Source: Parvularia atlantis (lineage: Eukaryota; Opisthokonta; Rotosphaerida). Taken from it: a DNA stretch of 25,258 nt. A program made the position numbers and the translations under genes. Under the pieces are notes generated by a model. It did not search any database. It saw only the letters and a list, made by a program, of their open reading frames with translations, and was not told the DNA's origin. Positions 5,318-25,189 of this stretch are shown one piece after another (positions within the stretch are counted from its first letter, which is position 1; every line of letters begins with the position of its first letter). The DNA lies in the NCBI GenBank assembly GCA_943704415.1, contig CALSCO010000304.1:1-25258 (forward strand), given 5' to 3'.

Positions 5318-5353
<36 letters not shown>

Positions 5354-5400: not shown

Positions 5401-5835
5401 GCTGCCTCCGCGCCCACTGTGCCTTCCGCGAAACTTTCCCTCTCACCGCTCGTTGCGCATGTTTCGAACTTTTTTCTGTCAGCAGGCTATTTCGGGAACG
5501 ACAACGCCTCCGTGCGGCAGTGCCGCCGCCTCCCTGCCGCCCGCTGCGTCCACGGCCAACGTTCCGTGCTACCACGAGCCGTCCGCAAGATTCCGCTCGA
5601 CTAAGCCTGCGTCGGACGTGAACGCCGCGCGCGCGTCGTGGACTTCTTCTGTTGAGCGCGCGCGTGTCGAGTGCGGGAGCGGACGGACATTGGACGTTCT
5701 TGTGCGTGGCGCGCGCGCATCGCCCCTCAGGCCTGACGTACGACATGCCCCGTCGTGTGGCGCACCGCGCTGGCCCTCGAAGTCGCTGTCGGTTCGCGTC
5801 CGGTCGGTCGTGCCCGCGCGCCGCGCGCCTGCAAA
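5401..5835. promoter_or_regulatory. Upstream region of the Crooked neck gene
   Basis: These 435 bp begin at the Crooked neck start codon. The stretch 5430-5505 is markedly less GC-rich than its surroundings, with GAAACTTTCCC and TTCGAACTTTTTTCTG, and is the best candidate for that gene's promoter. I see no convincing TATA box. A plus-strand frame from the ATG at 5459 runs to 5863, but its composition and sequence match no family. Confidence 0.35.
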
Positions 5836-6153
5836 ATGCAGCAGGTCCGAGTCGCGCCGTTGACGCGTGCGAGACGCGGAGGCGCAGGGCGTACTTGAGG
5901 CGTACCGCCCGCGCGCCGATGCAGTGGGCCGACTCAGACGTGCCGTCCGCGCGCTGGCCGGGACGACGGACGCTGTTGCTCTCTGGACCTTTTTTAAAGG
6001 ACTGCGGAGCATGTGCAGGAGGTCGGCGGCGCAGGCTCGGCCGCCAGCAACATCGCCATCGGCCTCGTGCTCGGGTGTGCCGACTGGGCGCTCAAACGTG
6101 CGCCAGTCTCGCTGCTTTGGACTTTGTGTTCTGCAGACCTCAAGACACACTGA
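5836..6153 (+). CDS. Possible small membrane-protein gene, unrecognised
   Basis: A tentative model. An ATG at 5836 is followed by a GT donor and a 43-nt possible intron with TTGAC plus a GCGCAG acceptor. Next comes a coding-like stretch reading GVLEAYRPRADAVGRLRRAV and DAVALWTFFKGLRS to about 6010. A 35-nt candidate intron (6013-6047) would join this in phase to NIAIGLVLGCADWALK, a hydrophobic Gly/Ala-rich helix, ending at TGA 6151-6153. A 39-nt GTGCGC...CTGCAG segment (6098-6136) could also be an intron. The end overlaps the stop of the opposite-strand STELLO-like gene by 14 bp. The two short introns lack a clear branch site. Alternatively this is untranslated or intergenic sequence. I recognise no family. 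Confidence 0.25.
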
Positions 6154-8518
6154 CGGGCGCAGGCACGACGCGCGGCGCGTAGTACCACGCGTACGCGCGC
6201 TCGAGCTCCTCGATCGTGCGCACGTGGTGGAAGTAGCTGCCGCCCGCGACGCGCCAGTGCTTGTGCGACGACGTCGCGCTCAGATCGACGCGGTCGGGCG
6301 GGTTGTATGAGCCCGTGATGAAGTGCACGCCGTCGTGCAGCCGCTTGTCGCTGTACACGGCCCCGCCCGTGGCGCAATGCAGGTAGCCGGCGAGGGTGAC
6401 GTCGTACAGCGCGAGCGTCGGGCAGGTGTCGCTCGCCGCGCCCTCGAGCATGAGGTCGAGCGCGACGCGGTCAAAGCCGTAGAGGTTGCCCTTGAAGAAT
6501 CTGAACACGCGCGAGGGCGAGGCCTTGGGACCGTAGTGCTGCTCGTACAGCGCCTGCTCCGTCGTCTGGTTGGGCCACGCCAGGTACACGCGGCCGATGT
6601 CAAGCGAGACCTCGGCCGGGCTGATAAACAGGTGCGGGCGCGGGCGACCGTGCGTGCGCTTGAACATGCTGAGCTGCTCCGCGACGACGTCGAGCAGCGG
6701 GAACGTGTCGTCGTCGATGCCGATAAAGAGCGCGCGGTCGCCGAAATAGTCGCGCAGGTGCCGCAGCGCATCGTGCACGACGTGCGCCTGGCGGGCCTGG
6801 CGGTGCGGCGCGCCGTACTGCGGGTAGCGCGAGGTCACGGGCACGGTCGGCACGCTCGCGTCGGCCGTCTCGCTGAAGATCACAAAGTCTGCCACGAACG
6901 GCCCCAGCAGCTGGCGCATGCGCCGTGCGATATCGTGCCGCTTGCTGAACGTCATGGTGAACAGCACCACGTCGGCCTCCAGCAACAGGCGCGTGCCCGT
7001 CTCGTGCAGCGTCACGGGCCGGTCGAAGCGCAGCATCGCCGTCGGCTGCTCCAGCGGCACGTGCCCGCATGCGGTGCAGTTTGGGTAGCCCACGAGCACG
7101 TCGGGTGAGGCGGACGCGACGGTCGAGCGCACGGGCGCCTTGTACTCTGCGCGCACGAGGTCGCGCAGCCACGCGCGCAAGATGTCCACGTCGAGCCACG
7201 TCCACAGCCCCGCACGCGCCAGTTGCACGGCGAGCTCGAGGGCGCGCTCGAGCGTGCTGGCGTCGCGCGAGAGCTCCGCCGTCGCGACCGCGTCCAGCAC
7301 GGCCGCGGCATGCTCGCGCAGCGGCGCCTCCTCTGCGAAGCGGCGCGCACGCTCGGCGCTGCGGTCGGCTGTCGACCCGTCCGACGGCTTGCTCGCCGCG
7401 GTCGTGCCGGCGTCGTACACGACGAGCGCACCCAGGTCGCCTAGCAGCCGCTGCGCCCAGTAGCCGCGCCACACGTCCGCGACGCGCGCCGCCTGCGTCG
7501 CCGGGAGGCCAAGTGCCCACAGCGCGTGCTCGCGGAAGACGGCGCCGCGGCCGGGCATCGGCGCGAAGCGGCCCGGGGCAATTGCGAGGGCGGGCGCGCT
7601 GGGCATGAGCGGCAGGTCGCACGGCGCGGCCGCGTGCAGGCGCGTAAGCAGGAAGACGGCGTCGACGTCGACGTGCCCACGCGCGACGTGGTAGTCGATG
7701 CCCACGCGCCGCCACGCCGCGGCGATGTCGGCTGGTGCCTCGTACGCGGGCACGCCGGGTGCGGCCGAGTCCGCCCCGAGCGCCTCCAGCGGGTGCCCGC
7801 GCAGCCACGCCGTCGCCTGGCCGAGGTGCGCGAGCGGGTTGTCGAGGCGCGGGGCGCGCGGCCGGGCGACGACGAGCGCGCGGCCGGGCTGCTCGTCCGG
7901 CAGCAGCGGCAGATGGAGCCGGCGCGCGCCGTCCACGTCGCCGTCTTCGTCGTCGCCAAACACGGCATCATCGAGCGCGACCTCGAAGATGGTGCGCGCG
8001 CCGTGCGCGATCGCGTGAAGGCAGCCGAGCATGTGCCGCAGGTGCTCGTCCGTGCTGTTGCGCGCGCGCGGCGCCGTGGCGGGCGCAAGGAACGCCGCCG
8101 TCTCGTACGCGCCCACGTGCGCATCGCCCGCGTCCAGGCCCAGCTGCACCACGTCGCCGCCCAGCGCCGTCCACGCGCGCGCATCGACCGCGTCCGGCCC
8201 CGGCACGTGCACGATGAGCAGCGTCCAGCGCGGCGCGAGGCGGGCGAGCGCGCGGGCGGCCGGCCCCGGCGAGCGCACCGCCGTCGTCGCGACGATCCAC
8301 GCCGATGCGCCGGCTCTCAAACGCGGCGTTTCGGGCTGCGGCAGCGGGCCCAGCGTGTCGTGCCGCCGCACCGCCCCGTGACCGTCGACGCCCGTGAGCA
8401 GGCCGGTCATGAGCGTGCGCCCGTGCAGCAGCACGACGGCCGCCGCGACCAGCGCAATCGCAACGACAGCTGTCAGCGCGAGCTGCAGCAGGCGCCGCAT
8501 CTGATGCAATCTGTTCAT
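6140..8518 (-). CDS. STELLO-type (DUF288) glycosyltransferase-like Golgi membrane protein
   Basis: Predicted type II membrane protein of 792 residues in one exon. Residues 10-32 form a single membrane anchor (LLQLALTAVVAIALVAAAVV) after a short basic N terminus, as in Golgi-resident proteins. Family resemblance to plant STELLO1/2 and other DUF288 proteins is clear in several blocks: HAIAHGARTIFEVALDD (plant AIQHGAKKIFDADD), NPLAHLGQATAWLRGHPLE, FREHALWALGLP and VWRGYWAQRLLGDLG. The C-terminal half resembles a nucleotide-sugar transferase fold, with LFIGIDDDTFPLLDVV near residue 600 carrying a DDD metal-binding-like motif, then GNLYGFDRVALDLMLEG. In plants STELLO proteins act in Golgi assembly of cellulose synthase; that role cannot be assumed here. 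The ATG at 8518 was preferred over an in-frame upstream ATG at 8599, which would lie in the neighbouring gene's stop. The lack of introns contrasts with flanking genes. Confidence 0.85.
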   Translation of the reverse strand: MNRLHQMRRLLQLALTAVVAIALVAAAVVLLHGRTLMTGLLTGVDGHGAVRRHDTLGPLPQPETPRLRAGASAWIVATTAVRSPGPAARALARLAPRWTLLIVHVPGPDAVDARAWTALGGDVVQLGLDAGDAHVGAYETAAFLAPATAPRARNSTDEHLRHMLGCLHAIAHGARTIFEVALDDAVFGDDEDGDVDGARRLHLPLLPDEQPGRALVVARPRAPRLDNPLAHLGQATAWLRGHPLEALGADSAAPGVPAYEAPADIAAAWRRVGIDYHVARGHVDVDAVFLLTRLHAAAPCDLPLMPSAPALAIAPGRFAPMPGRGAVFREHALWALGLPATQAARVADVWRGYWAQRLLGDLGALVVYDAGTTAASKPSDGSTADRSAERARRFAEEAPLREHAAAVLDAVATAELSRDASTLERALELAVQLARAGLWTWLDVDILRAWLRDLVRAEYKAPVRSTVASASPDVLVGYPNCTACGHVPLEQPTAMLRFDRPVTLHETGTRLLLEADVVLFTMTFSKRHDIARRMRQLLGPFVADFVIFSETADASVPTVPVTSRYPQYGAPHRQARQAHVVHDALRHLRDYFGDRALFIGIDDDTFPLLDVVAEQLSMFKRTHGRPRPHLFISPAEVSLDIGRVYLAWPNQTTEQALYEQHYGPKASPSRVFRFFKGNLYGFDRVALDLMLEGAASDTCPTLALYDVTLAGYLHCATGGAVYSDKRLHDGVHFITGSYNPPDRVDLSATSSHKHWRVAGGSYFHHVRTIEELERAYAWYYAPRVVPAPVSVS

Positions 8519-8595: not shown

Positions 8596-10706
8596 TCACT
8601 TGGAATGCGCCAGCATGCGCTCTGGGTGCTCGACGTAGCTCTTCCAGAGCATGTGGAACCGCGCCATCGTTGCACCGTCAATGATGCGGTGGTCGGCCGA
8701 CCACGACACGGGCTGCGGGCGGGGTCGGGTGTCAGTGCAACCGCGCTCAGCACGGCCACGCACCATCGTGAGCAGCTTGTCCCACTTGTCCTCCTCGTTG
8801 AGGATCACCTGCCGGCGGATGGCGCCGACGGCGCCGATGCACACCTCGGGCGAGACGATGACCGGGTTCATGTACGTGCCGCCAATGGTCCCTGTGGCGC
8901 GGATGAGCGCACGACTCGAGCGCGGGCCGGGCCAGGGCGGCGCACCGATGTTGGACAGCGTGAACGTGCCGCCAGAGAGGTCGGCGGGGCTGAACTGGCT
9001 CTTGCTGCCGAGCTGCTGCAGCCGGTTGAGCTCGGACGCGATTTCAAACATGGACCTGGTGGGCGCGTGAGCGACGCCGAGCTGTGCACGTGCGGCGCAC
9101 TTGTGCTGCACATCCTTGATGTTGGGCACGACCAGGCCCTGCGGCGTGTCCATCGCCACGCCGATGTTGTGGGACGCTGGCGGCGCGCTCTGCACGTGAG
9201 CCGACGCGGGCGTGCACGGCAATACCACACGTGCCCTTGTAGATCATCTCGGACTCGTCGTCGGTGAGCGAGCTGTTGAGGATCGGGAACTCGAGCAGCG
9301 CCATCGACGCGGCTTTGATGAGGATGGGCATGTACGAGAACTGGGCGCGGCGTGTGAGCGCGCGCCGGTCGCCCGCACCCGCGCGTACGGCGCACCTTGA
9401 CGCCTTGCTTCGCAGCAACCTCCTTGAGCTGCTCGCGCGCTTTGCTAGCGTTCTCCATCGTGACCTGCCGTGCGTGCGCTCAGCCACTGCACCCACGCGG
9501 CGCACGCGCATCGCGCCGCACCTCGTCCTTGAAGCCAAAGTGTGGGATGCGCCGCCACGACTCGTTCATGGTCTTGATCATCACCTTCTTGAAGCCGCGC
9601 ACGGGCTCGCGCCGGTCGCCGCGCGCCGCTGTCGGGGTGCTAAGCGTCGCGGGCGGCACGATCGCGGGTGCAGGTGCGTGGAGCGGAGCGGGCGCCGGAG
9701 CGGTGGCGGCGGCGGGCTCTGCGGGATGCGCGGCTGATCAGACGGCAGCAAAGCACGCGCAGGGGCGCTGCGCACGCGACGGATGCGCCGGCAGCTGGCC
9801 GATGTGCCGCAACACGTCCTCCTTCATCACGCGGCCGCTCTTGCCGGTGCCTGCGTCGCGCGCTCAGCCGTCAACGCCCCCCCCCCGGCGCTCGCACAGT
9901 GGCGCCGCACACCCTGCACGTGGCGCAGGTCCACGTTGTGCTGCTTCGCGATGGACCGCACGGCCGGCGTCGCAAACGTCGCGCCATTGGCGTCGAGGTG
10001 GTTGATCGGCGCGGCGTGTGCCGCAGCGGCCGCGGGTGCCGCAGCGGGAGCAGCAGCAGCAGGCGATGCGGCATCCGCGGCCGTGTCGTTGTCGAGGTCG
10101 ATGTCGATCAGGGGCTGACCGACCTTGGCGACCTGGCCGTTCTGTCGTCGCCGCGCGTCAGCCGACGCGGGATCGCGCGACGGCGGCGTGCGCCTTGTAG
10201 TGCAGCTTCGTGACGCGGCCCGTGAACCGCGACGAGATCTCGACCGAGGCCTTGTCGCTCTGGACCTCGCAGATCTTGTCGAACTCGGCGATCTTGTCGC
10301 CCTCCTTGATGAACCTGGCGCGCGCGCGGACGTGGTCGGCATCCCGCCCGCGCACACACGGCGCAACGCAGGCGCGCGCGCACCACTGCAGCACCTCGAC
10401 CTCGACGATGCCCTCGCCAATGTCGGCCAGGTTGAACGGGCGCACGGCCCAGGCCGTCGCGGCGGCTGCGCTCGCGCGGTCAAAACGTCGCTTCCCACGG
10501 CTGAGCAGGCGGCGGCGGCGCACCGTGGAACATGCGCGAGCGCGCCGGCACGGCACGCGCCGCACTTGAGACACGCAGCAGCCCCAGCCCGTGACGCACC
10601 TGGCGACGGCGACGCGGACGGCGGGCGACGCAGCGGGCGGCGCGGCGGCGAGCGAGAGGTGAGCGGCACGTGACGGCGACGTCCGGCGCACGTGACGCAC
10701 CGCCAT
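8596..10706 (-). CDS. DBT: Branched-chain 2-oxoacid dehydrogenase E2 (dihydrolipoyl transacylase)
   Basis: Mitochondrial E2 core of the BCKDH complex; transfers branched acyl groups from lipoate to CoA in Val/Leu/Ile breakdown. Exons in transcription order: 10706-10600, 10564-10524, 10465-10384, 10314-10194, 10141-9913, 9850-9776, 9718-9522, 9464-9396, 9340-9235, 9176-9101, 9055-8946, 8891-8764, 8712-8596. This gives 485 residues (human 482). An Arg/Ala-rich presequence fills about 50 residues. The lipoyl domain has NLADIGEG and EVQSDKAS (lipoyl Lys98); the E1/E3-binding domain has [15 protein letters not shown] and [14 protein letters not shown]; an Ala/Pro linker follows. The catalytic domain has [20 protein letters not shown] and [11 protein letters not shown] (His455, Asp459). 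YKASHNIG and the linker-free [12 protein letters not shown] favour the BCKDH type over pyruvate or oxoglutarate E2. Two introns (10193-10142, 9234-9177) appear to be GC-AG. The presequence could also be read without its first two introns (33 more residues). Confidence 0.95.
9177..9234 (-). other. Probable GC-AG intron in DBT
   Basis: On the minus strand the exon ends TACAAGG and the intron begins GCACGT, ending GCCGCCAG (58 nt). This splice gives YKASHNIG, a highly conserved block. The only phase-compatible GT donor (GTATTG, nine bases downstream) would insert Gly-Thr-Cys into that block. Confidence 0.65.
9851..9912 (-). other. DBT intron carrying a 10-base C/G homopolymer
   Basis: A normal-sized intron (62 nt, GTGTGC donor, GACGCAG acceptor) containing a run of ten C on the plus strand at about 9877-9886 next to TTGACGGCTGAG, a double branch-site-like motif. 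The run is prone to slippage but does not affect coding. Confidence 0.8.
10142..10193 (-). other. Probable GC-AG intron in DBT lipoyl domain
   Basis: The exon ends CTACAAG and the intron begins GCGCAC, running 52 nt through GGCTGACG to GACGACAG. This gives [19 protein letters not shown], which matches the family spacing (human KLYYNLDDIAYVGKPLVDI). The GT alternative (GTCGCG, 40 nt) keeps phase but adds four residues in the turn. Confidence 0.6.
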
Positions 10707-11167: not shown

Positions 11168-11381
11168 TCACCCGGGCCCGGCCAGCCGCCGCGCGAGCTT
11201 GAGCTGCCGGTAGTGCGCCACCACGCGCTCGCGCTCGTCCGCGAGGATGCGCTCGTCCGCCGCGCTGCGCCCGCTCGCCGCCGCCGCGGCCTTGGCCTTG
11301 GCCTTGGCGGCGCCGCGCGGCACCTGCGCAAAGTGCGGGATGTCCTGCGCGACCTCGCCGAAGCGCACGCGGTCGACGGGC

Positions 11382-11426
<45 letters not shown>

Positions 11427-11881
11427 GTGTCGGGCGTCTCGGTCGCGGCCGCGCCGCCCTTGCGCCTGCGCGCGCGTTCGGCGAGCTTGGCGCGGCGCGC
11501 GCGCAGATGCGCCTTGCGCCCGGCGCGCGTCTCGTGCCCGGCCTCGACGCGCTCCTGCAGCAGGCGCGCCGCGGCCTCGTCCACGCGCCGATGGAACTGG
11601 CGCACGCTCTCGTGTGGGCGCAGCGCGGTCGGCAGGGCCGATGCCGATGCCGGCGCTGTCGATGACTGCTGCTGCTGCTTCTGCTTCTTGCCGGCGATGC
11701 TCCGCGCGACCGCATCGGCGCGGCGCAGCAGCCGCTGCAGCGCGCGCGGCACGCGCTCGGCCTCCGGATCGGGCGCGTCGGGGTCCGCGAGCACGTCCGG
11801 CACAAGGCTGCTCGCGTCGAGGGGCGCGTCGTCCTCGTCCTGCACAGCGCGCGGCAGCAACTTTACGCGACGCCTGCCCAT
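11168..11881 (-). CDS. CCDC137-like nuclear/nucleolar coiled-coil protein
   Basis: One exon, 237 residues. The start is the ATG at 11881 (MGRRRVKLLPR); an in-frame GTG further upstream is not a plausible start. The C-terminal pattern fits animal CCDC137: VDRVRFGEV followed after a gap by ADERERVVAHYRQLK, close to the human VKFGEVVLQPP and EEERERAVQAYRALK. The middle is very basic and Arg/Ala/Glu-rich (HLRARRAKLAERARRRKGG), as in nucleolar proteins. Human CCDC137 is a nucleolar protein reported to bind and sequester the retinoic acid receptor; that role is unlikely in a protist, where only the conserved core is informative. A poly-Ala run (GCG/GCC repeat) sits just before the conserved motif, and a short poly-Gln run (KQKQQQQSS) lies near residue 75. 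No introns. Confidence 0.72.
11383..11423. repeat. (GCG)n repeat coding poly-Ala
   Basis: About thirteen to fourteen GCG units encode the alanine run of the CCDC137-like protein on the opposite strand. It is absent from animal relatives and is likely a recent, unstable expansion. Confidence 0.85.
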
Positions 11882-12009
11882 GCTGTCATCAAGTGACGTC
11901 ACGGCTCGTGGCCGCCTTCCTTTTTGGGCCTCGTCGCGCCCTGTTCTCGTTCTCTTGTCGCGCGCGCGCCGTAGATCTCACGCGCGCCCCTCGCCACGCC
12001 GCAGATCTT
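11882..12009. promoter_or_regulatory. Divergent intergenic region, CCDC137-like / giant receptor
   Basis: 128 bp separate the two start codons. It holds GTGACGTCAC, a perfect palindrome matching the CRE/ATF consensus TGACGTCA (about 11894-11903), and CTTTTTGGG. It must contain both promoters. Confidence 0.5.
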
Positions 12010-15000
12010 ATGCGCGTCGCCCTCGCCGTGGTCGCCGTGGTCGTCGTGGCCGCGGCGGCGGCCGTGGCGCAGCCGCCGCAGTGGACGTTCGCGGGCTACC
12101 TGCGCCAGGGCCGCGCGCAGCACACGGCGACGGCGCTGCTCGACGGCAACGTGCTCGTGGTGGGCGGGGCGTTGCAGAGCACCGCCGAGCTGTACTCCCC
12201 GGCCACGCAGACGTCGATCGCGGTCAGCGGCGAGCTGCCGTCAGAGCTGTACGGGCACGCGGCCGTGCTGCTGCTCAGTGGCAACGTCCTGCTTATCGGC
12301 GGCCAGACGTCGGCCTTCGTCGTGTACAACACGGTCTACGTCTACATCGTCTCGATCAACACGCTCGCGCTCTTCATTAACATGGCAACGGCCCGCACCG
12401 ACGTGCGCGCCGTCGTCCTCCCCTCGGGCGACGTCGTCATCGCCGGCGGCTCAACCGGCCCGAGCGCGTACACCGCCGCCGTCGACCGCTACAAGGACGG
12501 CCAGTGGGTCACGGGGCCCGACATGTCGATCGCACGCACGCTGCACACGATGACCGTGCTCCAGGACGGCAACGTGCTCGTCGTCGGCGGCCAGCCCGAG
12601 GCGGCGCTCTTCTCGGTGCTCATCTACATCCCCTCGTTCGGTGTCAGCGGCCTGTGGACCACGACCGCGTCGCTCAACGTGCCACGCTACAACCACGACG
12701 CGCAGCTGCTGCCGGACGGGCGCGTGCTCGTCGTCGGCGGCGGCAGCGAGCCCTTGTGCGAGCTCTTCAACCCCCTGCTCAGCAGCTGGAACATCACCGG
12801 CTCGCTACTCACCCCGCGCACCCGCGTCTACAGCGCCACGGCGCTCCTCCCCGACGGCACGGCCTTGCTCCTCGTCGGCGGCTCGTTCGACTCGCGCAGC
12901 GTCGAGATCTACGACATCACGGCGGGCAAGTGGGCCAACACGACCAGCACAATCGACGCGCGCTTCTACCACGTCACCGTCAGGCTCGCAAGCTCGATCC
13001 TCGCCGTCGGCGGCATTGTCTCGTCCTCCTCACCCAATGCCGACAACTCGACCGAGATCTTCACCTCGACCACCAACACTACCGGCACGCCCACCCCGAC
13101 CATTCCGGACCCCACCAACACACCGACGAACTTCCCGAGCGGCAGCCCCACTGTGCAGCCGGATTCCGCGTACAAGTGGCAGAACGACGTCTCGCTCAAC
13201 GCGCCGCGCCAGCTGCACACGGCGACGCTGCTCCCGTCCGGCCTCCTGCTGGTCACCGGCGGCGTGAGCGTCTCGATCGGCGAGCTCTACAACTCGACGA
13301 CGGCGAGTTGGACGTACGCGGGCGGGCAGATGCAGAGCGTGCGGTATAAGCACACGGCGACGCTGCTCGGCGACGGCCGCGTGCTCGTCATCGGCGGCTA
13401 CGACGAGTCCTCGGCCCTCAACTCGACCGATTTTTACGACCCAGAGCTTGACCTGTTCTACCCGGGCGACAACCTCCTCTACAAGCGCGCCATGCACCGC
13501 TCTGTGCTCCTCAACGACGGCCGCGTGTTTGTCACGGGCGGCAGCGACAACGGCGAGGGCGCCTCACCGTACACGACAGAGCTGTGGAGCCCCGGCGAGG
13601 GCTGGATCGCGGGCCCGGTCTTCAACGAGCCGCGCAGCGCCCACACGGCCACGCTTCTGCTCGACGGCCGCGTGCTCGTCGTCGGCGGCTTAAACTCGGC
13701 CGTGTCCTACACGAGCGTCATCGTCGACCTCGCGCTGCGCACGCCCGCATGGTCCCCGGCCGCGTCACTCTACTACGGGCGCTACTTTCACGACGCACAG
13801 CTCCTGCCCAACGGGCGCGTGCTCGTCGTCGGCGGCACGCAGTACGGCGGCAGCGGGCTCGCAGCCTGCGAGATCTACGACCCGGACTACAACCAGTGGT
13901 ACATCACCGGCTCGCTCATCGCCCCGAGCGACGTCGCCTACCAGTCGACAGCATTCTTCTTGGGCGATGTCATCTCCGTCGGCGGCTCGCCCGACTCGGC
14001 CCGGACGCAGCTCTACAACGTCGCGAACGAGACGTGGTCCGACCTGCCCGAGACGATCGGCATGCGCTACTTTCACACGGTCACGCAGACGCTCACGGGC
14101 GCGATCCTCGCCGTCGGCGGCAGCACCAACCCGTACTCCTCGGTCATCTACGACGTCGACGTCCCGCCCGCCTCGCCCAACAAGTGGGTCCTCACCGGCT
14201 CGATGGACACCGGCCACTTCCAGGCCACGCTCACCGCGCTCGACGACGGCGGCGCGGTCATCGCCGGCGGCGTCGACGTCAACACGGTCGAGCGCTACAA
14301 CGCGGCCGAGGGCAGGTGGATCAAGCTCGAGATGACGATGCAGTCGCCGCGCTACCAGCACACGGCCACGGACGTGGGCGAGCGTCGCATCCTGTTTGTC
14401 GGCGGCCAGACCTCGGCAGGCCCCGTGAACACGGCCGACGTCCTCGACACCGGCTACAACTTTGTCTATCCCGCCGCGTCCATGAGCGTCGGGCGCTTCC
14501 TGCACGCGGCCGTGCTGACGAGCTCCGGGCGCCTGCTCGTCACGGGCGGCTTCACGTACAACGGCACCACTGACCTTGCCGAGTTCTACGACCCCATCAA
14601 GGACACCTGGTCACCCGGCCCGACCCTGCCGACCACGCTCGCGTACCACACCATGACGGCGCTCAACGCGGGCTCCACCATCCTCCTCGTCGGCGGCATC
14701 CTGGACTACGTCGACTCGTCCCAGACTTCTGCGGCGTACATCCTCACGCGCAGCTCGTGGATTGCCGTCGGCTCGCTCAACATCCCGCGCTTCGGACACA
14801 GCGCTGTCGTGCTCGACGACGGCAGCGTGCTCGTCGCCGGCGGCGACTCGGCCGCGGCAGCCATCACGGCCGACCGCTACTACCCGGACGGCGGCTACTG
14901 GGAGCTCACCGGCACGCTCTCGCAGGAGCGCTTCGCGGCGGCGAGCATCGCGGCCGTGCTCGTCAACGGCAAGGTCCTCATCGTCGGTGGCACCACCAAC

Positions 15001-18000
15001 GACGACGACAAGAGCGTGGAGGTGTACGACCCGGTCGAGAACTTGTGGACCCTGGCCGAGCCCACCAACGTCCGCCGCTACGGCCACGGCGTCGTGCGCC
15101 TCAGCGGCGGCTATATCCTCGCGGCCGGTGGCAGCGTCGGCGAGGGCTACACGGCATCGAGCGAGCTCTACGTCTACGACGTCAGCGTGCCCACGCAGCC
15201 GCCCCCACCCAGCTCGGGATGGGCCGCGGTCGGCCAGATGGTCGACGCGCGCAACTTGCACACGCTCACGACGCTGCTCACGGGTGAGGTGCTCGCTGCA
15301 GGCGGCTTCGACCGCGACTCGGTCGAGCTGTTTAACCCGTTCCAGCTATCGTGGCGGTTCGTCGAGCAACCCATGCAGAGCGTGCGTTGGCAGCACACGG
15401 CGACGCGGCTCCAGGACGGGCGCGTGCTCCTCGCCGGCGGCTACACCTACGACGGCCCGATCAACTCGACCGATATCTTTTCGCAGACCGAGAGCCCGAT
15501 CAGCCGCGGGATCAACACCCTCACGCCCGGCGCCGACATGATCAGGGAGCGCGCCGCGCACACCGCGACGCTGCTGCTCGATGGACGCGTGCTCGTCGCG
15601 GGCGGCGCGGACCGGTACGACGTCACCAACGAGTGCGAGATCTACGACGGCGGCTTCGACACGTGGTCCCCGGGCCCTACGCTGCCGACGCCGATGAAGG
15701 ATCACGCCGCCGCGCTGCTCCCTAGCGGCACCGTGCTCGTCGCCGGCGGCGTGCCCAGCGCCGAAAGCGAGCCGCTCTCGGTGGCGTACGTCTGGGCGCC
15801 GCCGCCCATAAGCCAAGGCTGGATGGACGCCGGGCCCATGAACGTCGCCCGGTACCAGCACGAGGCCGTCGTGCTTAACAGCGGCGCCGTGCTCGTCGTG
15901 GGCGGCTACACCGAAGACGCCTTCTCGAGCGCCGAGGTCTACGACCCCGAGCTGCGGACATGGACCCTCACCGCGCCGCTGCCCTCGCCCCACGCCCGCA
16001 CGCGCCTGGCCGTCGTCGTGCTCGTGACGGGGCGGGCGCTTGTCGTGGGCGGCTACTCCAGCAGCAACGCCGTGGACGAGTACGACGAGGCATGCAGCGT
16101 GTGGACGTCAGCACCGTCGACCGTCTACTCGCGCTTTTTGCACGCCGTCGTGCTGCTCAACAACGGTTACGTGCTCGCGGCGGGCGGCTTAAACGATGGC
16201 CTCATCGACACCAGCGAGGTTTACTACTACGACCAGTTTGTGCCGACGCAGCCGCCGACGCAGTCACCAACCGAGGCGCCCGTGCCGCGCTGGGAGCAGA
16301 CCGGCTCGCTACAGGGCGCGCGCTACTACCACACGTCGACGCTGCTCGACAACGGCAACGTGCTCGTCACGGGCGGCCTGCAGCGCACGGACGCCGAGGT
16401 GTACTACGCGAACGAGGGCGTGTTTGTGACCGTCCCGAGCCAGATGCAGACCAGCCGCGCCCAGCACACGGCTACACGCCTCTTCAATGGCCGCGTGGTG
16501 CTCGCCGGCGGCACGACGGGCAAGGGCGAGTACCTGTCGTCGGTCGACGTGTACGGGCCCAACGAAAACGCGTTTAGCCCGACGGCCTCGCTCAGCACGG
16601 GACGCCAGCGGCATCGCGCGGTGCTCATGAACGACGGCCGCGTCTTTGTCTCCGGTGGCTTCTCCACGGCTGTGTACACCGTGGCCGAGACCGAGTTCTA
16701 CGACAGCGAGACGCAAGAGTGGAGCCCAGGACCGCTACTGCCCAACGGGGGCGTGGGCGCGCACAGCATGACGCTGCTGCAGGACGGCACGGTGCTCGTC
16801 GCGGGTGGTGCCGCTTCGTCCGTCATTCCCGTGCCCAACGCGTACCTCTTTGACCCGAACAATGCGCAACTCGGCTGGGTCGCCGTCGGCAGTCTCACCT
16901 TCACGCACTACGATCACGATGCGCAGCTGCTGGACAACGGCAAAGTGCTGGCCGTCGGCGGCGTGGGCAACCCGAGCGCCTGCGAGCTCTACGACCCGAT
17001 CGAGCGCATCTGGATCACGACGGGCTCGCTAATCCTCGCACGCACGTACACGTTCCAGGCGACAGCGCTTCTGGCCGACGGCACCGTGCTGGTCGCCGGC
17101 GGCGACTTGGGCGTGCCCTCTGCCGAAATCTACTATCCCGGAGAAGGCTTCTGGAGCGGGACGGTGCCGATGAGCTACCCGCGCCAGTACCACGCCCTGA
17201 CCGTCCTCGCTAACGGCTACGCACTCGCGATGGGCGGCTTCAACGACGGCGCGACATCGTCGGCTGAGTACTACCTGTACCCGATCAGCGAGGCACCGGT
17301 CGAGACCGCCACGGCCAGCTTTACCGAGAGCGCCACTGCTAGCTTCACCCAGAGCGCCACGGCCAGCTTTACCGAGAGCGCCACTGCTAGCTTCACCCAG
17401 AGCGCCACGGCCAGCTTTACCGAGACCGCCACGGCCAGCTTTACCGAGACCGCCACTGCTAGCTTCACCCAGAGCGCCACGGCCAGCTTTACCGAGACCG
17501 CCACGGCCAGCTTTACCGAGAGCGCCACTGCTAGCTTCACCCAGAGCGCCACGGCCAGCTTTACCAAGAGCGCCACGGCCAGCTTTACCGAGAGCGCGAC
17601 CGGGACGTCGACCCAGACTGCGACGCAGTCAGCAACGCAGTCGGCAACGCAGAGCGCGACGGCCACGTCGACGCAGACGGCAACGCAGAGCTACACGCGG
17701 TCAGGCACAGCGACGTCGACGCAAACCGCAACGCAGAGCTACACGCAGACGGCCACCCAGACGGCCACCGCCTCCGCTACTGCCAGCTTTACTCAGTCCG
17801 ACACTGCTACCTCAACACAGACCGCTACCCAGAGCTTCACGCAGTCGGCAACTCAGACAGCGACGGCGTCAGCTACGGCTAGTTTCACGCAGTCGGACAC
17901 TGCAACGGCGACCCAGTCGGCGACCCAGTCGGCGACCCAGACCGCGACCCAATCGGCGACCCAATCGGCAACGCAGACCGCGACCCAATCGGCAACGCAG

Positions 18001-21000
18001 ACCGCGACCCAGACCGCGACCCAGACCGCGACCCAATCGGCGACCCAGTCGGCAACGCAGACCGCGACCCAGAGCGCGACCCAGTCGGCGACCCAGACCG
18101 CGACCCAGAGCTTCACAAAAAGCGCGACCCAGAGCTTCACGAAGAGCGCGACCCAGACTGCTACGGCCTCAGTGACGGCCAGCTTTTCGCAGTCGGCGAC
18201 ACAGTCGGCAACGCAGAGCTTCACTCAGACAGCGACGCAGACAGCGACGCAGAGTGCAACGCAGACAGCAACGGCCTCAGCGACGGCGAGCTTCACACAG
18301 TCGGACACGGCCACCGCGACGCAGAGCGCAACGCAGACCGACACAGCTTCGTTCACGCAGACCGACACGGCTTCGTTCACGCAGACCGACACGGCTTCGT
18401 TCACGCAGACCGACACATCTACCGCGACCCAGTCGGACACGGCCACCGCGACCCGGTCGGACACGGCCACCGCGACCCAGTCGGACACGGCCACCGCGAC
18501 CCAGTCGGCCACGGCGAGCGCCACGGCATCGGCGACCGCAACTGCCAGTGCCAGCGCAACGGCATCGTACACGCACAGCGACACCGCGACCTACACGCAG
18601 AGCGACACCGCCAGCTTCACGCAGAGCGACACGGCCAGCTTTACGTACACCGTCACGTCCACGTCGGCGTCGCCCGCGGCGTCGTACACGGCCACGGCCA
18701 CACCGACGCCGATCTACTACACCGCGTCGATCCGCCGCACAAGCTCGGGCGCTCCGACGTCCTACCTGGACCCGCAGGCGGGCTCGGCCGGTCTCGACGC
18801 GCCGTTGGTGCTGCAAGCACTCGTGACGCCGTCGCCGCTGCCGTCGGCGGGCCTGCTGTACGCGTGGCGCTGCGTCTCGCCCTCGTTCGCATGTCCCGTT
18901 CTTGTGCAGCAAGACCAGGTACGCGTCTGCGCGCGCGCAAGACGCCGGTGTTGCTCACCCTTGCATGTCGCAGCGCACGTTGTCGATGCCCGGCTCGTCG
19001 CTGCTCGGCGCGCGCGTCTACACCTTCTCACTCAACGTGACCAACCCCGCCACGGGCAACTGGACCATGACGACCACGCGCTTTGCGACCGTGCCCGCGC
19101 CCGTCGGAGGCGCCTTTGCCTTTGCGCCGCTCAGGGTGCGTGGCTGCTGCGCCTATCCGGCTGCGGAGCTGACGGGCGCCGCGCTGACCAGGTCGCGCCG
19201 CTCGACACCATCAACCCGGTCAACATCACCGCGATCAGCTGGTCGGCCCCGACTAACGACCTCCAGTTCCGCTTCGCGTACGCGCCGGGCATCGGCGCCA
19301 CGCTCGACTCGAGTGGCGTGCTGTACCTGGGCTCGCTGTCGAGCACGATGACCGCGTCGATCCCGTTCCTCAACGTCGGCAACTACACGCTCTTTGGCAT
19401 CGCCGTCGCCGGCTCGTGCGTTCGCACGGCGCTCTGTGAACGACCGCTGCAGGCTGACGCGTACGCAGGTCCTACGACGCGCCCTCAAGCGTGGTGCGCA
19501 CGGCCACGGTCGAGGCATCGGGCAGCGTGACGCTGGCGCAAGTTCAGCAGATCGCGGCGCAGCAGCTGGCTGACGCCCTGGGCGGCTCGGACCCGAACGC
19601 TGTGTCGTTGACGGCTGCAGCCCTGCTGGACGCGCTCAACAGCATTGTGCCGTCCAACGACACTGCCGGCGACCTCGCGGCTCTGCGCGGGCAGATTGTG
19701 CAGGACGTGCTGGGCTACGCGCGTGATACGGCCGAGAACTCCGACTTGAGCCAGGACATGCTCTCTGGCGCCCTGAGCGTGCTGCAGCGCGCCACGAGCG
19801 CCCCGAGCCAGACCGGCAATGCGTCCTTCGACGACATCACGAGCTTCCTGGACGACTTTGCGGACCAGATCGAGACCGCCAACGATGCACAGAATCTGCT
19901 GCGTACGCTCGACGGTCTGCTCCTGTCCAAGCTGCCCAACCCGCCCGGCAGCGTCGCCGACTTTTCTCTCGCCTCGGTGAACGCGTCGGACGTGCAGCTC
20001 ACGGCCGAGGAGGCCGAGCGGCTGCGCAGCGTCGCCCGAGCAGGTCTCAGCGCGTTTGCCTCGACGCTCGCGTGCGGCGCGGACGCCGAAGGCATCGACA
20101 GCGCCACGTTCTCAGCGCAGGTGCAGACGGTGGCCGGTGGCGGCGGCCTCGACCTGTCGGTGGACCCGTCGCAGGGCAGCTTCTCGACGGGCGCGGGCTT
20201 CTCGCCGACGGGGGGCAGCGAGGACGGCTGCGCGACGTACCAGTTTGTGCAGAGCGCGCTCAACCCGTACAGCTACGCCGACTCCAACTACACGGTGGGC
20301 TCGCCCGTGTTCACGATCGAGTTCTTCGACCCGAGCAACCCGGACCGGCCGCTCAACATCAGCGGGCTCACGGCGGACGAGGCGCTGACGATCCGCCTGC
20401 CGTTCGACTCGGTCGCGGCGGGCACGGGCGCGGACAACGAGACCGTGACGTGCATCTACTGGAGCGTGACGGAGGGCGACTGGCGCACGGACGGCTGCAC
20501 CAAGTCGGATGAGACGACGGTCAACGAGGTGCGCCGCGCCGAGCTGCGTGGCTGAGCGGGGGGGTGGTGGACTGACGCGCGCGCGCGTGTGCAGCTCGTG
20601 TGCGTGTGCACGCACTTTACCGAGTTTGCGCTCGGCTCGATCACCATCCGCGTCAACCCAATCATCATCCCGCCAACCATCAACCTGCAGTCGCGCGGCC
20701 TGATCGCGGCGTGCGTGCGCCCGTTGCACGCGCGCTGTTGCTCACCTAGCGGGGCAGCTGGGTCACGATCGCAGGCCTGCTGTTCATCTTCATCATCCTG
20801 TCGATCTACGCCGCGTGGATGGACTCGCGCTACCGGGCGTCTGCGCGGCAGCCGGAAGTGGAGGAGGTGGCCGACTTTGTCCAGCGCGTCTACACCCTGT
20901 ACCAGCAACCGGTCACGTCGCGCGTGCTGCAGACGGTGCGCACTGCGCAGTGGGCGGCCGACGTTTGCTCACGCGCGCGCCCAGCTGCACCTCGAGACGT

Positions 21001-22158
21001 GGAAGGAGGCGTATGGCTCGTACTGGTGGCCCACCGGCACCAAGCTGACGATGTGGCAGCGCATGTACATGTCGGCGCGCTTCGGCTTCCGCTACAACCA
21101 CAGCTACGTCTCGATCTTCTTTGACCCGATCTCGATGGTGCGCGCGCGCCTGTGTGGACTTGCACCGTCGTTGACCAGTGAGTGCGGCGGCAGGGCACGC
21201 GGTTCGCGCGCGTGTGCGCCACGATCAGCTCCTTGTTTGTCAACCTCGCCATGTCGGCCGTGTTCTTCCAGTACTCGTCGAGCAGCAACGACTTCTTCGA
21301 CCCGAACAGCATCGCGCTCAAGCTTACCGTCGGTTTCCTCACGTCGGCGATCACCTTCGTGCCGTTCACGCTCATCCAGTTCCTGATGAAGCACGTGCGC
21401 CGCCCGGGCCTCACGTCCGACATCGACCCGGCCGCGTTCGACATCGAGCTGTACGTCATGCGCAACGCGACCATGCTCTTCACGCCGGGCGAAGTCGCCG
21501 CGGTGGCCGCCGCCAAGGACCCTGCCGCGGCCTCGTCGGCGGCCGGGGCGGACGGTGACCTGACCGTTGGCTCGTTCTACGCCGCCGAGGTGACCGACGC
21601 GGCGGCCGCCCCGGGCGCCAAGGGCACCACGACGACAAACGCCAAGCCGACCAAGGACATGATCGCCTACAACTCGTTCACGGACTTTTTGCTGCCGCAC
21701 TGGTGCGCTGTCACGACGTGCGCGTGCGTGTGCGTGTGGGCTGACGCGGCGGGCAGGGTCGACTACGTGCTCTACGCCGTGTGCGGCCTGCTGTCGGCCG
21801 GCAGCATCATTGTTACGGCGCTCTACGGCGCCAACGCGGACGTCATCGACCCGACCAACGACCTGGTGCGCGCCGTGCGCCGTGTGCGGCCGGCGCCCTG
21901 ACCTGCCCCGCTCGGCGACGCAGACGATCGCATGGATCCAGTCGTTCGCCGTCTCGGTCGCGGTCAACATCGTCGTGCTGCAGTCGCTCCAGGCGATCAT
22001 CGGCTCGATCGCGACGGGTGCGCGCGCACGCACGCTGTGTGGGCCCCAACACGGTGCCGCTCACGCTCACGCCGCGCGCAGCCATCGTCGGCTCGCTCAC
22101 GACCATCGGCGCGGCGGTGGCGCTCGTCGTCGGCAGCACGCTGCTCAACGCCAACTAG
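12010..22158 (+). CDS. Giant five-propeller kelch / stalk / REJ-GPS / multi-span surface receptor (polycystin-1-like membrane part)
   Basis: Exons: 12010-18918, 18974-19135, 19192-19415, 19469-20528, 20595-20710, 20758-20935, 20985-21137, 21194-21702, 21757-21865, 21924-22017, 22082-22158; 3196 residues. The start gives a signal peptide (MRVALAVVAVVVVAAAAAVA). Order: five kelch propellers (about 25-1759), Thr/Ser/Ala stalk (about 1766-2236), REJ-like segment (YAWRCVSPSFACP, LSMPGSSLLGARVYTFSLNV), a helical GAIN-like region (about 2435-2755), GPS motif with CIYWS, DWRTDGC and CVCTHFTEFA, then about six membrane helices: WVTIAGLLFIFIILSIYAAW, ATISSLFVNLAMSAVFF, TVGFLTSAITFVPFTLIQFL, YAVCGLLSAGSIIVTALYG, WIQSFAVSVAVNIVVLQSL, IVGSLTTIGAAVALVVGS. 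HSYVSIFFDP before helix 2 and WIQSF resemble polycystin-1-like proteins. I see no PLAT or channel domain. The protein is likely a self-cleaved adhesion or environmental sensor; ligand unknown. The upstream in-frame extension is rejected because the signal peptide marks this start. Confidence 0.88.
12082..13066 (+). repeat. Kelch propeller 1 (7 motifs)
   Basis: The seven motifs are HTATALLDGNVLVVGG, HAAVLLLSGNVLLIGG, RAVVLPSGDVVIAGG, HTMTVLQDGNVLVVGG, HDAQLLPDGRVLVVGG, YSATALLPDGTALLLVGG and HVTVRLASSILAVGG. It begins right after the signal peptide and is followed by a Thr/Pro linker (TPTPTIPDPTNTPTNFPSG). Confidence 0.85.
13177..14160 (+). repeat. Kelch propeller 2 (7 motifs)
   Basis: The seven motifs include HTATLLPSGLLLVTGG, HTATLLGDGRVLVIGG, HRSVLLNDGRVFVTGG, HTATLLLDGRVLVVGG, HDAQLLPNGRVLVVGG and HTVTQTLTGAILAVGG; the sixth is degenerate (YQSTAFFLGDVISVGG). 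A short Pro linker (VDVPPASPNK) follows. Confidence 0.85.
14185..15180 (+). repeat. Kelch propeller 3 (7 motifs)
   Basis: The motifs include HTATDVGERRILFVGG, HAAVLTSSGRLLVTGG, HTMTALNAGSTILLVGG, HSAVVLDDGSVLVAGG, ASIAAVLVNGKVLIVGG and HGVVRLSGGYILAAGG, after a first blade with FQATLTALDDGGAVIAGG. It is the most diverged copy. A poly-Pro linker (VPTQPPPPSSG) follows. Confidence 0.83.
15220..16239 (+). repeat. Kelch propeller 4 (7 motifs)
   Basis: The motifs are HTLTTLLTGEVLAAGG, HTATRLQDGRVLLAGG, HTATLLLDGRVLVAGG, HAAALLPSGTVLVAGG, HEAVVLNSGAVLVVGG, RLAVVVLVTGRALVVGG and HAVVLLNNGYVLAAGG. The linker VPTQPPTQSPTEAPVPR follows. Confidence 0.84.
16291..17286 (+). repeat. Kelch propeller 5 (7 motifs)
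   Basis: The motifs are HTSTLLDNGNVLVTGG, HTATRLFNGRVVLAGG, HRAVLMNDGRVFVSGG, HSMTLLQDGTVLVAGG, HDAQLLDNGKVLAVGG, FQATALLADGTVLVAGG and HALTVLANGYALAMGG. It lies directly before the stalk. Blade by blade it is closest to propellers 1 and 2. Confidence 0.85.
17305..18717 (+). repeat. Coding minisatellite: Thr/Ser/Ala-rich stalk
   Basis: About 470 residues built from short units such as ATASFTES/ATASFTQS, ATQSATQT and TDTASFTQ. The units are homogenised in blocks. 17305-17595 alternates two 24-nt forms (GCCAGCTTTACCGAG and GCTAGCTTCACCCAG). About 17610-17900 repeats a longer STQTATQS...TASATASFTQSD unit. About 17910-18110 is a 12-nt-based ATQ(S/T) array. About 18340-18420 has four TDTASFTQ units, and about 18420-18510 has (T/S)ATQSD/TATRSD units. 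The composition fits an O-glycosylated, extended mucin-like stalk holding the propellers away from the membrane. Frame is kept throughout because units are multiples of three. Confidence 0.92.
20451..20636 (+). other. GPS autoproteolysis motif (split by one intron)
   Basis: Two Cys-Trp halves, CIYWSVTEGDWRTDGC and CVCTHFTEFA, match the GPS consensus of adhesion GPCRs and polycystin-1. The intron 20529-20594 lies between them. Cleavage is expected between Phe and Thr of His-Phe-Thr (20613-20621). All four Cys and both Trp are present, so the site looks functional. Confidence 0.85.
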
Positions 22159-22356: not shown

Positions 22357-25189
22357 ATGCGGACTGTCGGCGCGACCACCCCGCGACTCTTTGCGCGACT
22401 GTTGAGCCGCCCGGCCGCGCCCACCGGTGGCAGCAGCGGCAGCAGCAGCAGCCAGAAGGCCGTCGGGAGCAGCACCGAGACGATGCCGCTGCTGCACGGC
22501 GCGCGCGTCGCGCCGACAACGACGCCGTCGTCGGTCGTGATCGCGGTCGAGAACGAGGCGCCGCGCGGGCGCGACGAGGCGCTCGGGATGCTGCACGCGC
22601 CGGAGCAGCCGCTGGCGCGCGAGGTGACGCTGCCGGCCGAGACGACGCTGCGGCGCGGCGCGCGCACGATCGCGGTGCGGCGGCTGTACGGCCTGCCGGA
22701 CGAGACCGTGGCGCGCGCGCGGCTCGTCGAGGGCCGGCAGCTCGTGCTGCGCGTGCGCGATCGCGCCGAGGCGCTCGTCAGCTCGGCGTCGTCGGCGCGG
22801 CGCGCGGCCGTGCTGCGCGACGTCGCGAGCCACGCCGCGGAGATCGCCGTGCTGATCGACGGCGTCGTGCGCGAGGACGCCGACGCGTGGGACCTCGGGC
22901 CGGGCTTCCAGGGCGTGCTGCAGGAGGTGCTTGCGCACGTGCGGCTCGTGGACGACACGATGGACCGCGTCGGCGCGTGGTGCGTCGTCTGCCGTCTGCT
23001 GCTGTCGTTATCGAAGGACGCTGACGGCGGACGGCAGGGGCGCCGCCAAGACCATCCGCCGCGTGCGCGACAAGCTGCCCGGCCTGCTGCAGCACCTGCG
23101 CACGGCCGTGACGATCCACGGGCTCGTGGACGGCCGCGGGCGGCTCGAGTGCGCGCCGCGTGCTCATCGCGGACGGCAACGCGCGCTGATCAGCGACCAC
23201 GCCCGCAGCCCCTTCGTCGACCCGGGCGACGTCGAGGCCAACCGCCCGCTGCTCGATGTGCTGCGCGACTTCCACGCCGAGCCGTTCTTCGCGGCCGACG
23301 CGCCGCAGCTGGTGCCGCGGCTGTCGCAGTTCTACCGCGTGCTCGTCAAGGCCACGGCCGCGGCCAGCCGCTCGTTCCGCGCGCGCTACGCCTGGTCGCG
23401 CGCCGCACGCTTCTTCTTCTTCAACGCCGTCTACACCTTCTCGCTCCGCCTCGCCGCGAAGGAGGCCGCGTTCATCTTCAAGGAGGCCAACTTTGACATG
23501 CGCATGTGCAAGTTCCTCTGGAACCTGCCCGACTCGAGCAGTGCGTCTTTGCGCTGCATGTCGTGCGTGCGCCTCGTGCTGATCGCCGTGCGCGCGACAC
23601 AGCGTTCCGCCCCATGTTCCGGCTGCTGTACGACCCGGTCGACGTCGACGTGCCCTTCTCGATCCCGAACGCGGCCGACGCGCCCAACAGCGCGTTCTGG
23701 CCGGTCGAGGTGCGCGCGGTCGCCCCCTTTTGGCCTCGTGGTGCTCACGTAGACGTGTGCGGCCAGGTCGGCGACACGGGCCCGCCATGGGCACGCGACG
23801 CGCTCGTCCCGCCGCGCCTCCCGGCCGAGTCCGAGTTCCGGCACTCGCTCATCCGCGTGCGCCTCACGGTGGCGCGGCAAGACCAGCTGCTCGTGGGTGA
23901 CCTCACAAAGGACACGGCGAAGCACCAGCGCGCGTTTGCGGTGCGTGTGCCGTGCCGTGCCGCGCGTGTCGTTGTCGCTGCGCGCCTGATCGTCAGCGTG
24001 CAGACGGACGAGGAGGTGCAGCGCGGGTTCAAGGTCAAGCGCAAGGGCGTCAACACGATGACGCGGCGCGAGCTCGCGTCCGAGCGCATCCTCGGCGGCT
24101 TCAGTGCGTGCCGACTGCGTGCCTGAGCGAGAGCGCCTACTCAAGGGGCGCTAGACGAGTACTTCTCGCTGACGTATCCGATCCTGAGCGAGCCCTCGCC
24201 CGCGCTGATCTTCCACGTGCACGGCGGCGGCTTCGTGGCCATGACGTCGTTCTCGCACCTGCCGTACGTGCGCAAGTGGGCCGTCGACACGGGTGCGCCG
24301 CCCTCACGGCGTGCCCGAAGCGGCGGCTGAGCTTGCCGCAGACGTGCCGATCCTCAGCGTCGACTATCGCCTCGCGCCCGAGTACCCCTTCCCGACGCAG
24401 CTGGAGGAGTGCTACCAGGCGTACCGCTGGGCCGTGGCGAACGCGCTGCGCATGGGCACGTCGTGCCTGAGCGTGCGCGCCGCGTCTGATCGCAGCGACG
24501 TGGCGCAGGCTCAACCGGCCAGCGGATCGTGCTCACGGGCGACAGCGCCGGCGGCAACCTCGTGGCGGCCATCACGCTACGGGTGCGCGCCGTGCTCAGG
24601 CGCCGACGGTGCTGTTGTTGACGCCGCGCGCCGGCCAGGCCATCGTCGAAGGCTTCCGCCGGCCCGACGGGCTCATGCTCAACTACCCGTCGCTCAACCT
24701 GCGCGACGCGTCGTCGTGCTCGCGCATCCTATCGACGACCGACCCCATGCTCAACGCGGGCCTGCTGCTGCACCTGCAGGAGCTGCTGCGGCCGTCGGCG
24801 TCGGTGCCGCCCGAGAGCGAGGCGTTCATCTCGCCCGCGTACGCGCCCGCCGACGCCCTCGTGCGCTTTCCGCCCACGCGCATCATCGTGGGCGAGTTTG
24901 ACCCGCTCCTGGACGACTCGGTCTTCTTCTACAAGGTCTGTGTGCGTCTGTGCACAAGGCAGTCTGCTGACGTACGTGCGTGCCGGTGCATGCGCAGCGA
25001 CTCAAGGCGCTCGATCATGACGTCGCGATCAGCATACGGCCGGGCCTCGGCCACGGTTTCTTCCAGCTGGTCGACGTCGCGCCCGAGGCGCAGGAGGCCG
25101 TGGCGCTGTCGTCGCTGTGGCTGCGCGAGCTCGGCGGGCTAGACGCGGAGCCGCCGACCAATGTGAGCGGGCAGGAGGGCGCGGTGTGA
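22357..25189 (+). CDS. LIPE: Hormone-sensitive-lipase-like carboxylester/acylglycerol hydrolase
   Basis: Predicted cytosolic or lipid-droplet lipase of 758 residues. Exons: 22357-22979, 23038-23148, 23194-23540, 23603-23709, 23767-23940, 24004-24103, 24155-24292, 24342-24455, 24509-24582, 24639-24935, 24998-25189. The catalytic half matches HSL/LIPE: oxyanion motif [13 protein letters not shown] (about 507), [26 protein letters not shown], nucleophile GDSAGGN (Ser584), [11 protein letters not shown] (Asp684) and GLGHGFF (His714). The N-terminal half is diverged but includes an HSL_N-like helical region ([28 protein letters not shown]). The long phosphorylated regulatory insert of mammalian LIPE, between the Ser and Asp, is missing: only about 100 residues separate them. 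The first 90 residues are low complexity. Intron 24456-24508 begins with GC, and 23149-23193 and 23710-23766 are stop-free and of length 3n. The symbol denotes the family, not proven orthology. Confidence 0.9.
24456..24508 (+). other. GC-AG intron in the HSL-like gene
   Basis: The exon ends CGCATGG and the intron begins GCACGT, ending GTGGCGCAG (53 nt). This gives [19 protein letters not shown], matching human LLGSTGERICLAGDSAGG exactly in spacing. None of the GT dinucleotides nearby gives the required phase. Confidence 0.75.

Follow-up and report, generated by a model that had tools for sequence, protein, structure and literature searches.

This locus raises the question of whether one gene can join kelch propellers, a long Thr/Ser/Ala-rich stalk and the membrane part of a self-cleaving receptor. 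The window, that is, the whole stretch of 25,258 nucleotides analysed here, is contig CALSCO010000304.1 of Parvularia atlantis, referred to as C74 in an assembly of 16.25 Mb and 616 contigs that has no relative in the genome collection searched. A first-pass annotation had described in it a single spliced frame with five kelch propellers, a stalk, a REJ-like block, a GPS motif and polycystin-type helices, and had proposed a large self-cleaving receptor for adhesion or for the recognition of prey or mates, of a kind not previously described. The evidence given below points to one gene, which probably encodes a giant REJ/GPS, polycystin-1-like, self-cleaving adhesion receptor of the cell surface.

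The gene model comprises 11 exons on the forward strand, from 12010 to 22158, and its spliced product of 3196 amino acids agrees exactly in length with the frame reported in the first pass. Frame 1 of this strand is uninterrupted from 11203 to 19530, a run of 2775 codons (as against 845 in the longest other open frame of the window), and takes in the kelch part, the stalk and the start of the REJ-related block. The ten introns are 47-66 bases long and all have GT..AG ends, with GTGCG at the start of nine and GTACG at the start of one; CTGAC or CTCAC lies near the 3' end of each, except for intron 7, which has TTGAC. Splice-aware alignment of the translated C-terminal part, here called the tail, to the window returned the identical ten introns, although this is a consistency check only, because the query was the gene model itself. 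In seven paralogues located on other contigs, 35 of the 45 comparable introns match in position and phase: 10/10 on C276, 8/10 on C132, 6/6 on C69, 3/3 on each of C563, C484 and C472, and only 2/10 on C253. On C253 the sites of introns 4, 5 and 6 are uninterrupted, and the GPS and first helix (TM1) lie inside a single open exon, so that the corresponding window exons are directly shown to belong together.

The outer part of the protein, as judged from its repeats, is a series of five seven-motif kelch propellers. Pfam Kelch_4 matches it with E = 4.2e-89 over 15 stretches, and further kelch models match too. The double-glycine motifs number 35, as the first pass had counted, with seven in each of the five units; 31 were found by pattern, and four (at 97, 462, 798 and 1742) were picked by hand among 42 GG doublets. 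The units show 33-40% mutual identity and 33-38% identity to a single-propeller protein encoded on C563, and the closest PDB sequences are natural kelch proteins and SAKe proteins, the latter presumably designed propellers. The stalk, put at about 470 residues in the first pass, measures 469, made up of 154 Thr, 85 Ser, 108 Ala, 57 Gln and 2 Pro among others. With only two prolines it is Thr/Ser-rich yet not a Pro-rich mucin repeat, and it is probably O-glycosylated. The periods of its DNA include 24, 12 and 72 bases.

The GPS (PF01825) was recovered in full at residues 2759-2798 (E = 1.6e-9; 38.6 bits against a cut-off of 22.5), directly ahead of TM1, which starts at residue 2822. Its residues follow the pattern C..W..W..GC..C.C.HFT. 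An intact GPS is found also in the full-tail paralogues on C276, C253 and C132, and CTH(L/F)T(E/Q)F occupies the cleavage position in these three and on C69. A profile built from a six-row alignment of the window protein and five paralogues matches the GPS regions of adhesion G protein-coupled receptor (GPCR) F1 and G3 chains in the PDB, with E values from 5.7e-7 to 5.5e-6. The proposal of a self-cleaving receptor is thus well supported by an intact GPS that is conserved in the paralogues; after the predicted cut between Phe2793 and Thr2794 the C-terminal fragment would begin with TEFALGSITIRV. As for the REJ block, two paralogues score above the Pfam cut-off of 25 bits (C276, 42.6; C132, 38.3) and two below it (C563, 22.4; C253, 18.1), their matches spanning model positions 224-449 or part of that range. 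At E <= 1, REJ is matched in four of the six alignment members.

Six hydropathy peaks follow the GPS, between residues 2822 and 3187, the final two overlapping, which bears out the earlier estimate of about six hydrophobic helices; the stop codon comes about 30 residues past TM5. The TM2-TM3 part aligns with polycystin-1 (6a70_B, 8z6f_A), the preceding conserved RFGFRYNHSYVSIFF of the window protein pairing with QRGFFDKHIWLSIWD, and in both proteins a gap of about 200 residues is followed by an LPxW stretch. For this fragment hhalign gave a score of 32.3 (P = 2.1e-4), while the best of 400 shuffles reached 23.1; a profile of seven TM parts placed polycystin-1 third of twelve. Polycystin-1 also carries its GPS ahead of TM1. 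The similarity is weak, however, and the window protein differs in having no PLAT between TM1 and TM2 and in ending at about TM6, where polycystin-1 has 11 helices. PLAT gave no match at E <= 1 in the tail, nor among the families matched by the six alignment rows; 7tm_2 (PF00002) gave none in the tail at the same threshold; and PKD_channel, the last six helices of 11-helix members, was not matched in a Pfam scan of the tail. Searches of the genome for PLAT exons and for PKD_channel or a PKD2-type channel likewise found no match, but their controls were equally silent, so that genome-wide absence is not established by them. The resemblance of the tail to the front half of polycystin-1 is no more than suggestive. 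The polycystin-type helices of the first pass have a weak similarity behind them, and the tail shows neither PLAT nor a channel half. Judged by PLAT, the window protein falls outside the standard membership of the PKD1 family; it would work like a member.

Searching the assembly with the tail gave 44 exon matches, on C74 itself, C276, C253, C132, C563, C69, C484, C472, C99 and C5, and weakly on C449; splice-aware alignment yielded tails on seven of the matched contigs. Whole tails are present on C276, C253 and C132, and different C-terminal halves lie at contig ends on C69, C484 and C472, so that the tail exists in at least seven copies, the window gene included and possible alleles counted as copies. 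C563 and C5 hold N-terminal parts, also at contig ends, which could pair with some of the C-terminal halves. All six paralogues that reach the C-terminus have a stop codon 1-6 residues beyond the matched part, and so share the end of the window protein. The outer parts described here for sister genes, and that of C449, were assembled by eye from coding-like segments, with continuity within each gene assumed. At the four loci where upstream sequence is visible (C276, C253, C563 and C5) the outer part is unlike that of the window gene. On C563 a stalk is preceded by an FG-GAP-like region (PF14312, E = 7.3e-5, 23.3 bits against a cut-off of 23); C5 has Cys-rich repeats, two pieces of them DUF4215-like (E = 0.013 and 0.019, under the cut-off) and a third piece matching nothing, and these too are followed by a stalk; on C276 and C253 the outer part is Gly-rich and contains CDG...CGVCGG repeats, for which C276 gives an ADAMTS_CR_3 match under the cut-off (E = 0.026) and C253 gives no match. 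Since these differing upstream parts stand on a shared base, the genome appears to encode a group of receptors in which the ectodomain is exchangeable.

How such a receptor might operate can be sketched from its parts. Held off the membrane by the long stalk, the five kelch propellers would bind ligand. The GPS closes off the REJ-like block and the GAIN-type region, and at this motif the protein would most likely cut itself at F2793/T2794 during maturation, to judge from its conservation, and the kelch-stalk fragment would then stay non-covalently attached to the membrane fragment. Ligand, or a pulling force on the propellers, could shift or detach the outer fragment and so free TEFALGSITIRV, which may be a tethered agonist for the six-helix base. 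The base is without a pore half and so would depend on G proteins or a partner channel to relay the signal; G-alpha matches occur on C144 and C201. For GPS receptors, polycystin-1 among them, PMC9672506 and PMC1934368 describe a cut at the GPS, halves that remain associated, and a freed peptide that may serve as tethered agonist.

Several results weigh against this account of the gene. The REJ-like block of the window protein itself scores 11.6 bits (E = 0.1), under the cut-off, and its best stretch (model positions 120-186) lies ahead of the part of the model covered in the paralogues; the REJ assignment of the first pass thus passes the cut-off in C276 and C132 and misses it in the window protein. 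The Pfam scan of the tail found no match to a GAIN model around the GPS. In the profile search polycystin-1 (E = 0.28, not significant alone) is outranked by a receptor fusion (E = 0.16) and an aquaporin (E = 0.24). The TM2-TM3 fragment was selected for hhalign because it already matched, and a TM4-TM5 fragment chosen by its motif scored 18.7 (P = 0.031), within the noise of shuffling, in which 1 of 200 full shuffles and 4 of 200 hydropathy-preserving ones scored higher. Finally, the outer parts belonging to C132, C69, C484 and C472 are outside view.

The simplest alternative is that two adjacent genes, one for a REJ-GPS receptor and the other for a kelch-stalk protein that is either secreted or anchored, were merged through the stalk, either in the reading or in the assembly. 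The stalk is repetitive, and kelch proteins devoid of a tail do occur in this genome, in frames of 486 codons on C563 and 1463 codons on C282. Yet the single frame of 2775 codons spans kelch part, stalk and REJ start, residues 1742-2307 contain no Met, and in the hydropathy of the spliced protein no strongly hydrophobic segment or start appears from the end of the kelch part up to TM1. Furthermore, on both C563 and C5 a similar Thr/Ser stalk continues in frame into the REJ block. The longest exact repeat within the stalk is 73 bp and its longest exact match to seven other loci compared is 19 bp, which makes a misjoin through a shared repeat unlikely with ordinary reads, although the number of stalk repeats could be wrong. 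The fusion of kelch, stalk, REJ and GPS as a single gene, on these grounds, looks real, and we regard a merger of two genes as quite improbable.

Two other explanations accept a single gene and dispute its function. The propellers might be enzymes resembling galactose or glyoxal oxidase, displayed on a membrane anchor: Glyoxal_oxid_N matches with E = 2.2e-36 (125.8 bits against a Pfam cut-off of 37.5), as does the radical copper oxidase GlxA with E = 3.7e-41. Kelch repeats alone can produce such matches, however, and the GlxA score of 141 bits is far from the curated cut-off of 800. The mark of galactose/glyoxal-type oxidases is a Cys-Tyr cofactor, and the five units have five cysteines between them, with none in unit 3, so that a cofactor in every unit is impossible. 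Oxidase propellers were set aside on the GlxA score and the cysteine count; what would be left is the case of single active units, and to the oxidase explanation we give scarcely any credence. Less easily dismissed, though still unlikely, is a structural adhesin, in which the GPS cut and the helices merely anchor and shed the ectodomain without signalling, as a releasable glue or surface coat. A long stalk with repeated propellers would suit bulk binding, and neither a channel half nor PLAT nor any recognised cytosolic signalling domain came up in the scan of the tail. Against it, identity to the window protein is higher behind the GPS than ahead of it (65 against 48% identity on C276; 56 against 30% on C253, with a long loop removed; 54 against 38% on C132), a degree of conservation that anchoring alone should not call for. 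A self-cleaving adhesion receptor encoded by one gene accordingly remains the preferred reading.

The nearest described proteins that were found are SpREJ7 and Ectocarpus Esi0130_0068. SpREJ7, of the sea urchin SpREJ/human PKD1 family, shares with the window protein the order REJ, GPS and helices, and has six helices; both its termini lie on the same side, and channel helices are attributed to SpREJ3-6 and not to SpREJ7 (PMC1934368). The ectodomains listed there comprise C-type lectin, PKD, WSC, SUEL and EGF modules, and the text makes no mention of kelch; the window protein differs in its kelch propellers and long stalk, in having no PLAT, and in that REJ is recognised only through its paralogues. 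Esi0130_0068, according to PMC4700764, is a non-animal protein with REJ, GPS and 6 or 7 predicted helices, but it is 1427 amino acids long with an extracellular part of 976 residues, it has a polycystin channel match, and kelch is again unmentioned in the text. Adhesion GPCRs resemble the window protein in a GPS with the HxT cleavage consensus, in the hydrophobic peptide that follows it and in their modular ectodomains; they differ in helix type, the tail having no 7tm_2 match. Attractin/LZTR1 and kelch proteins of the galactose/glyoxal oxidase type share the propellers, by Pfam matches; several of them are extracellular or secreted, and to our knowledge they have no GPS or REJ.

The claim that no described receptor has this combination agrees with all that was found in the open-licence literature and in sequence collections poor in protists. 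Most subscription journals lie outside that literature, in which no relevant paper joining kelch with REJ or GPS was found; PMC6208332 has kelch and adhesion GPCR in separate genes, and in PMC6993872 kelch appears in a figure legend about Eph-like proteins. Among some 5.8 billion proteins no relative of the tail was retrieved with a 917-aa query (E <= 0.001), with the six-row alignment or with the 3196-aa query and its tail region (E <= 0.01 for both); this is weak evidence of absence, because only about 8000 candidates were scored and Ala-rich queries may crowd relatives out. Pattern matches in viral contigs (17) and in GTDB species contigs (38) included none confirmed as relatives of the tail. 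The protein, viral and prokaryote collections searched all share the poverty in protists.

Adhesion GPCRs and polycystin-1 are the main known examples of self-cleaving GPS receptors. It is tempting to suggest, if only tentatively, that the genome of this single-celled opisthokont encodes at least seven autoproteolytic receptors on one six-helix, poreless, polycystin-1-like core with interchangeable outer parts, a modular logic like that of adhesion GPCRs on a different membrane core. Those outer parts would comprise kelch propellers, FG-GAP-like repeats and Cys-rich and Gly-rich modules, and possibly HRM. If one GPS-six-helix base does carry gene-specific outer parts, then modular receptors on a self-cleaving base need not be seven-helix GPCRs, and such a genome would be a test bed for a poreless polycystin-1 front half operating without a channel. 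The gene itself predicts cleavage at F2793|T2794 and a platform of kelch domains for ligand on a stalk. Its features are collected in the table.

Table. Features of the receptor gene in the window.
Feature	Window positions (residues)	Strand	Remark
ATG and signal peptide-like hydrophobic start MRVALAVVAVVVVAAAAAVAQ	12010..12072 (1-21)	+	hydropathy peak 2.64 at residues 3-21
Kelch propeller unit 1, 7 motifs	12082..13059 (25-350)	+	
Pro/Thr linker ahead of kelch unit 2	13060-13179	+	
Kelch propeller unit 2, 7 motifs	13180..14193 (391-728)	+	
Kelch propeller unit 3, 7 motifs	14194..15225 (729-1072)	+	
Kelch propeller unit 4, 7 motifs, linker included	15232..16248 (1075-1413)	+	
Kelch propeller unit 5, 7 motifs	16249..17295 (1414-1762)	+	
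Thr/Ser/Ala/Gln stalk, 469 residues	17296..18702	+	
REJ-related block (end of exon 1, exons 2 and 3; introns 18919-18973 and 19136-19191 within)	18703..19415	+	both introns common to C276 and C563
Intron 3, phase 2	19416..19468	+	present in 4/4 paralogues covering it (C276, C563, C253, C132)
Exon 4: remainder of REJ-like block, GAIN-type region (assigned by position), beginning of GPS	19469..20528	+	
GPS motif, interrupted by intron 4 (20529-20594)	20448..20633 (2759-2798)	+	
Predicted self-cleavage site Phe2793/Thr2794, CTHF|TEF	20616..20621	+	cleavage inferred
Helix TM1, intron 5 (20711-20757) inside	20703..20806 (2822-2840)	+	
Exon 7: part of TM1-TM2 loop, strongly conserved RFGFRYNHSYVSIFF, no PLAT	20985..21137	+	
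Exon 8: TM2, TM3 and variable TM3-TM4 loop	21194..21702	+	TM2-TM3 part aligns with polycystin-1
TM4, TM5, TM6 and C-terminus; introns 21866-21923 and 22018-22081 within	21757..22155	+	
Stop codon TAG	22156..22158	+	
Ten introns	18919-18973, 19136-19191, 19416-19468, 20529-20594, 20711-20757, 20936-20984, 21138-21193, 21703-21756, 21866-21923, 22018-22081	+	

A more distant relative of the receptor lies on the reverse strand of C449, from about 12007 down to 7858, and presents a Thr/Ser stalk, Pro-Thr repeats and matches to HRM, REJ and GPS in one orientation. Its HRM match scored 27 bits against a cut-off of 26.2 in one scan and 25.6, under the cut-off, in the genome search; C411 has three HRM matches, two of them over the cut-off and one below. 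In PMC12716839, HRM outside Holozoa is reported only in Fonticula alba, and the joining of HRM to GAIN is placed in Holozoa. Should the present organism not be a holozoan, the HRM-REJ-GPS order on C449 would mean that this placement needs revision. Elongation factor EF-1alpha, encoded on C464, carries FKGWKKLDKKGAEVKG, at what we take to be the site of the opisthokont insertion signature, which would point to an opisthokont.

Further kelch, REJ and helix sequences were noted in the assembly. The 486-codon frame on the reverse strand of C563 (9682-11076) has a signal peptide-like start, then a single kelch propeller of seven motifs and a Pro-Thr stalk with PTDAPT repeats, and its C-terminus is hydrophobic; the stalk-REJ gene follows on that strand about 6 kb downstream, and further coding-like segments separate the two. 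On C282 the 1463-codon frame (reverse strand, about 15883-19263) combines a long Pro-Thr stalk with several kelch stretches, which by eye amount to three propellers; a second kelch match is found at 6481-7512 on the forward strand, and the genome tail search found no window-type tail on this contig. From these two kelch frames, kelch-on-stalk surface proteins exist in the genome also without a GPS base. C166 has on its reverse strand (2241-8120) an open frame of 1960 codons in which NTATELGPV repeats are accompanied by a Cys-rich part and a REJ match (E = 6.7e-14). The tail-like exons on C99 are accompanied by in-frame stops and odd intervening sequence, and look like a decayed copy. One match over the cut-off to 7tm_2, the seven-helix domain of secretin/adhesion type (25.4 against 20.6 bits, E = 4.8e-5) occurs at C117:20211-20498.

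The neighbours of the receptor gene in the window are a heat shock factor DNA-binding domain (457-633, forward strand), HAT repeats of Syf1/CRNKL1 type (3129-3611, reverse), a 2-oxoacid dehydrogenase acyltransferase (8761-9168, reverse) and an alpha/beta hydrolase (24606-24938, forward).

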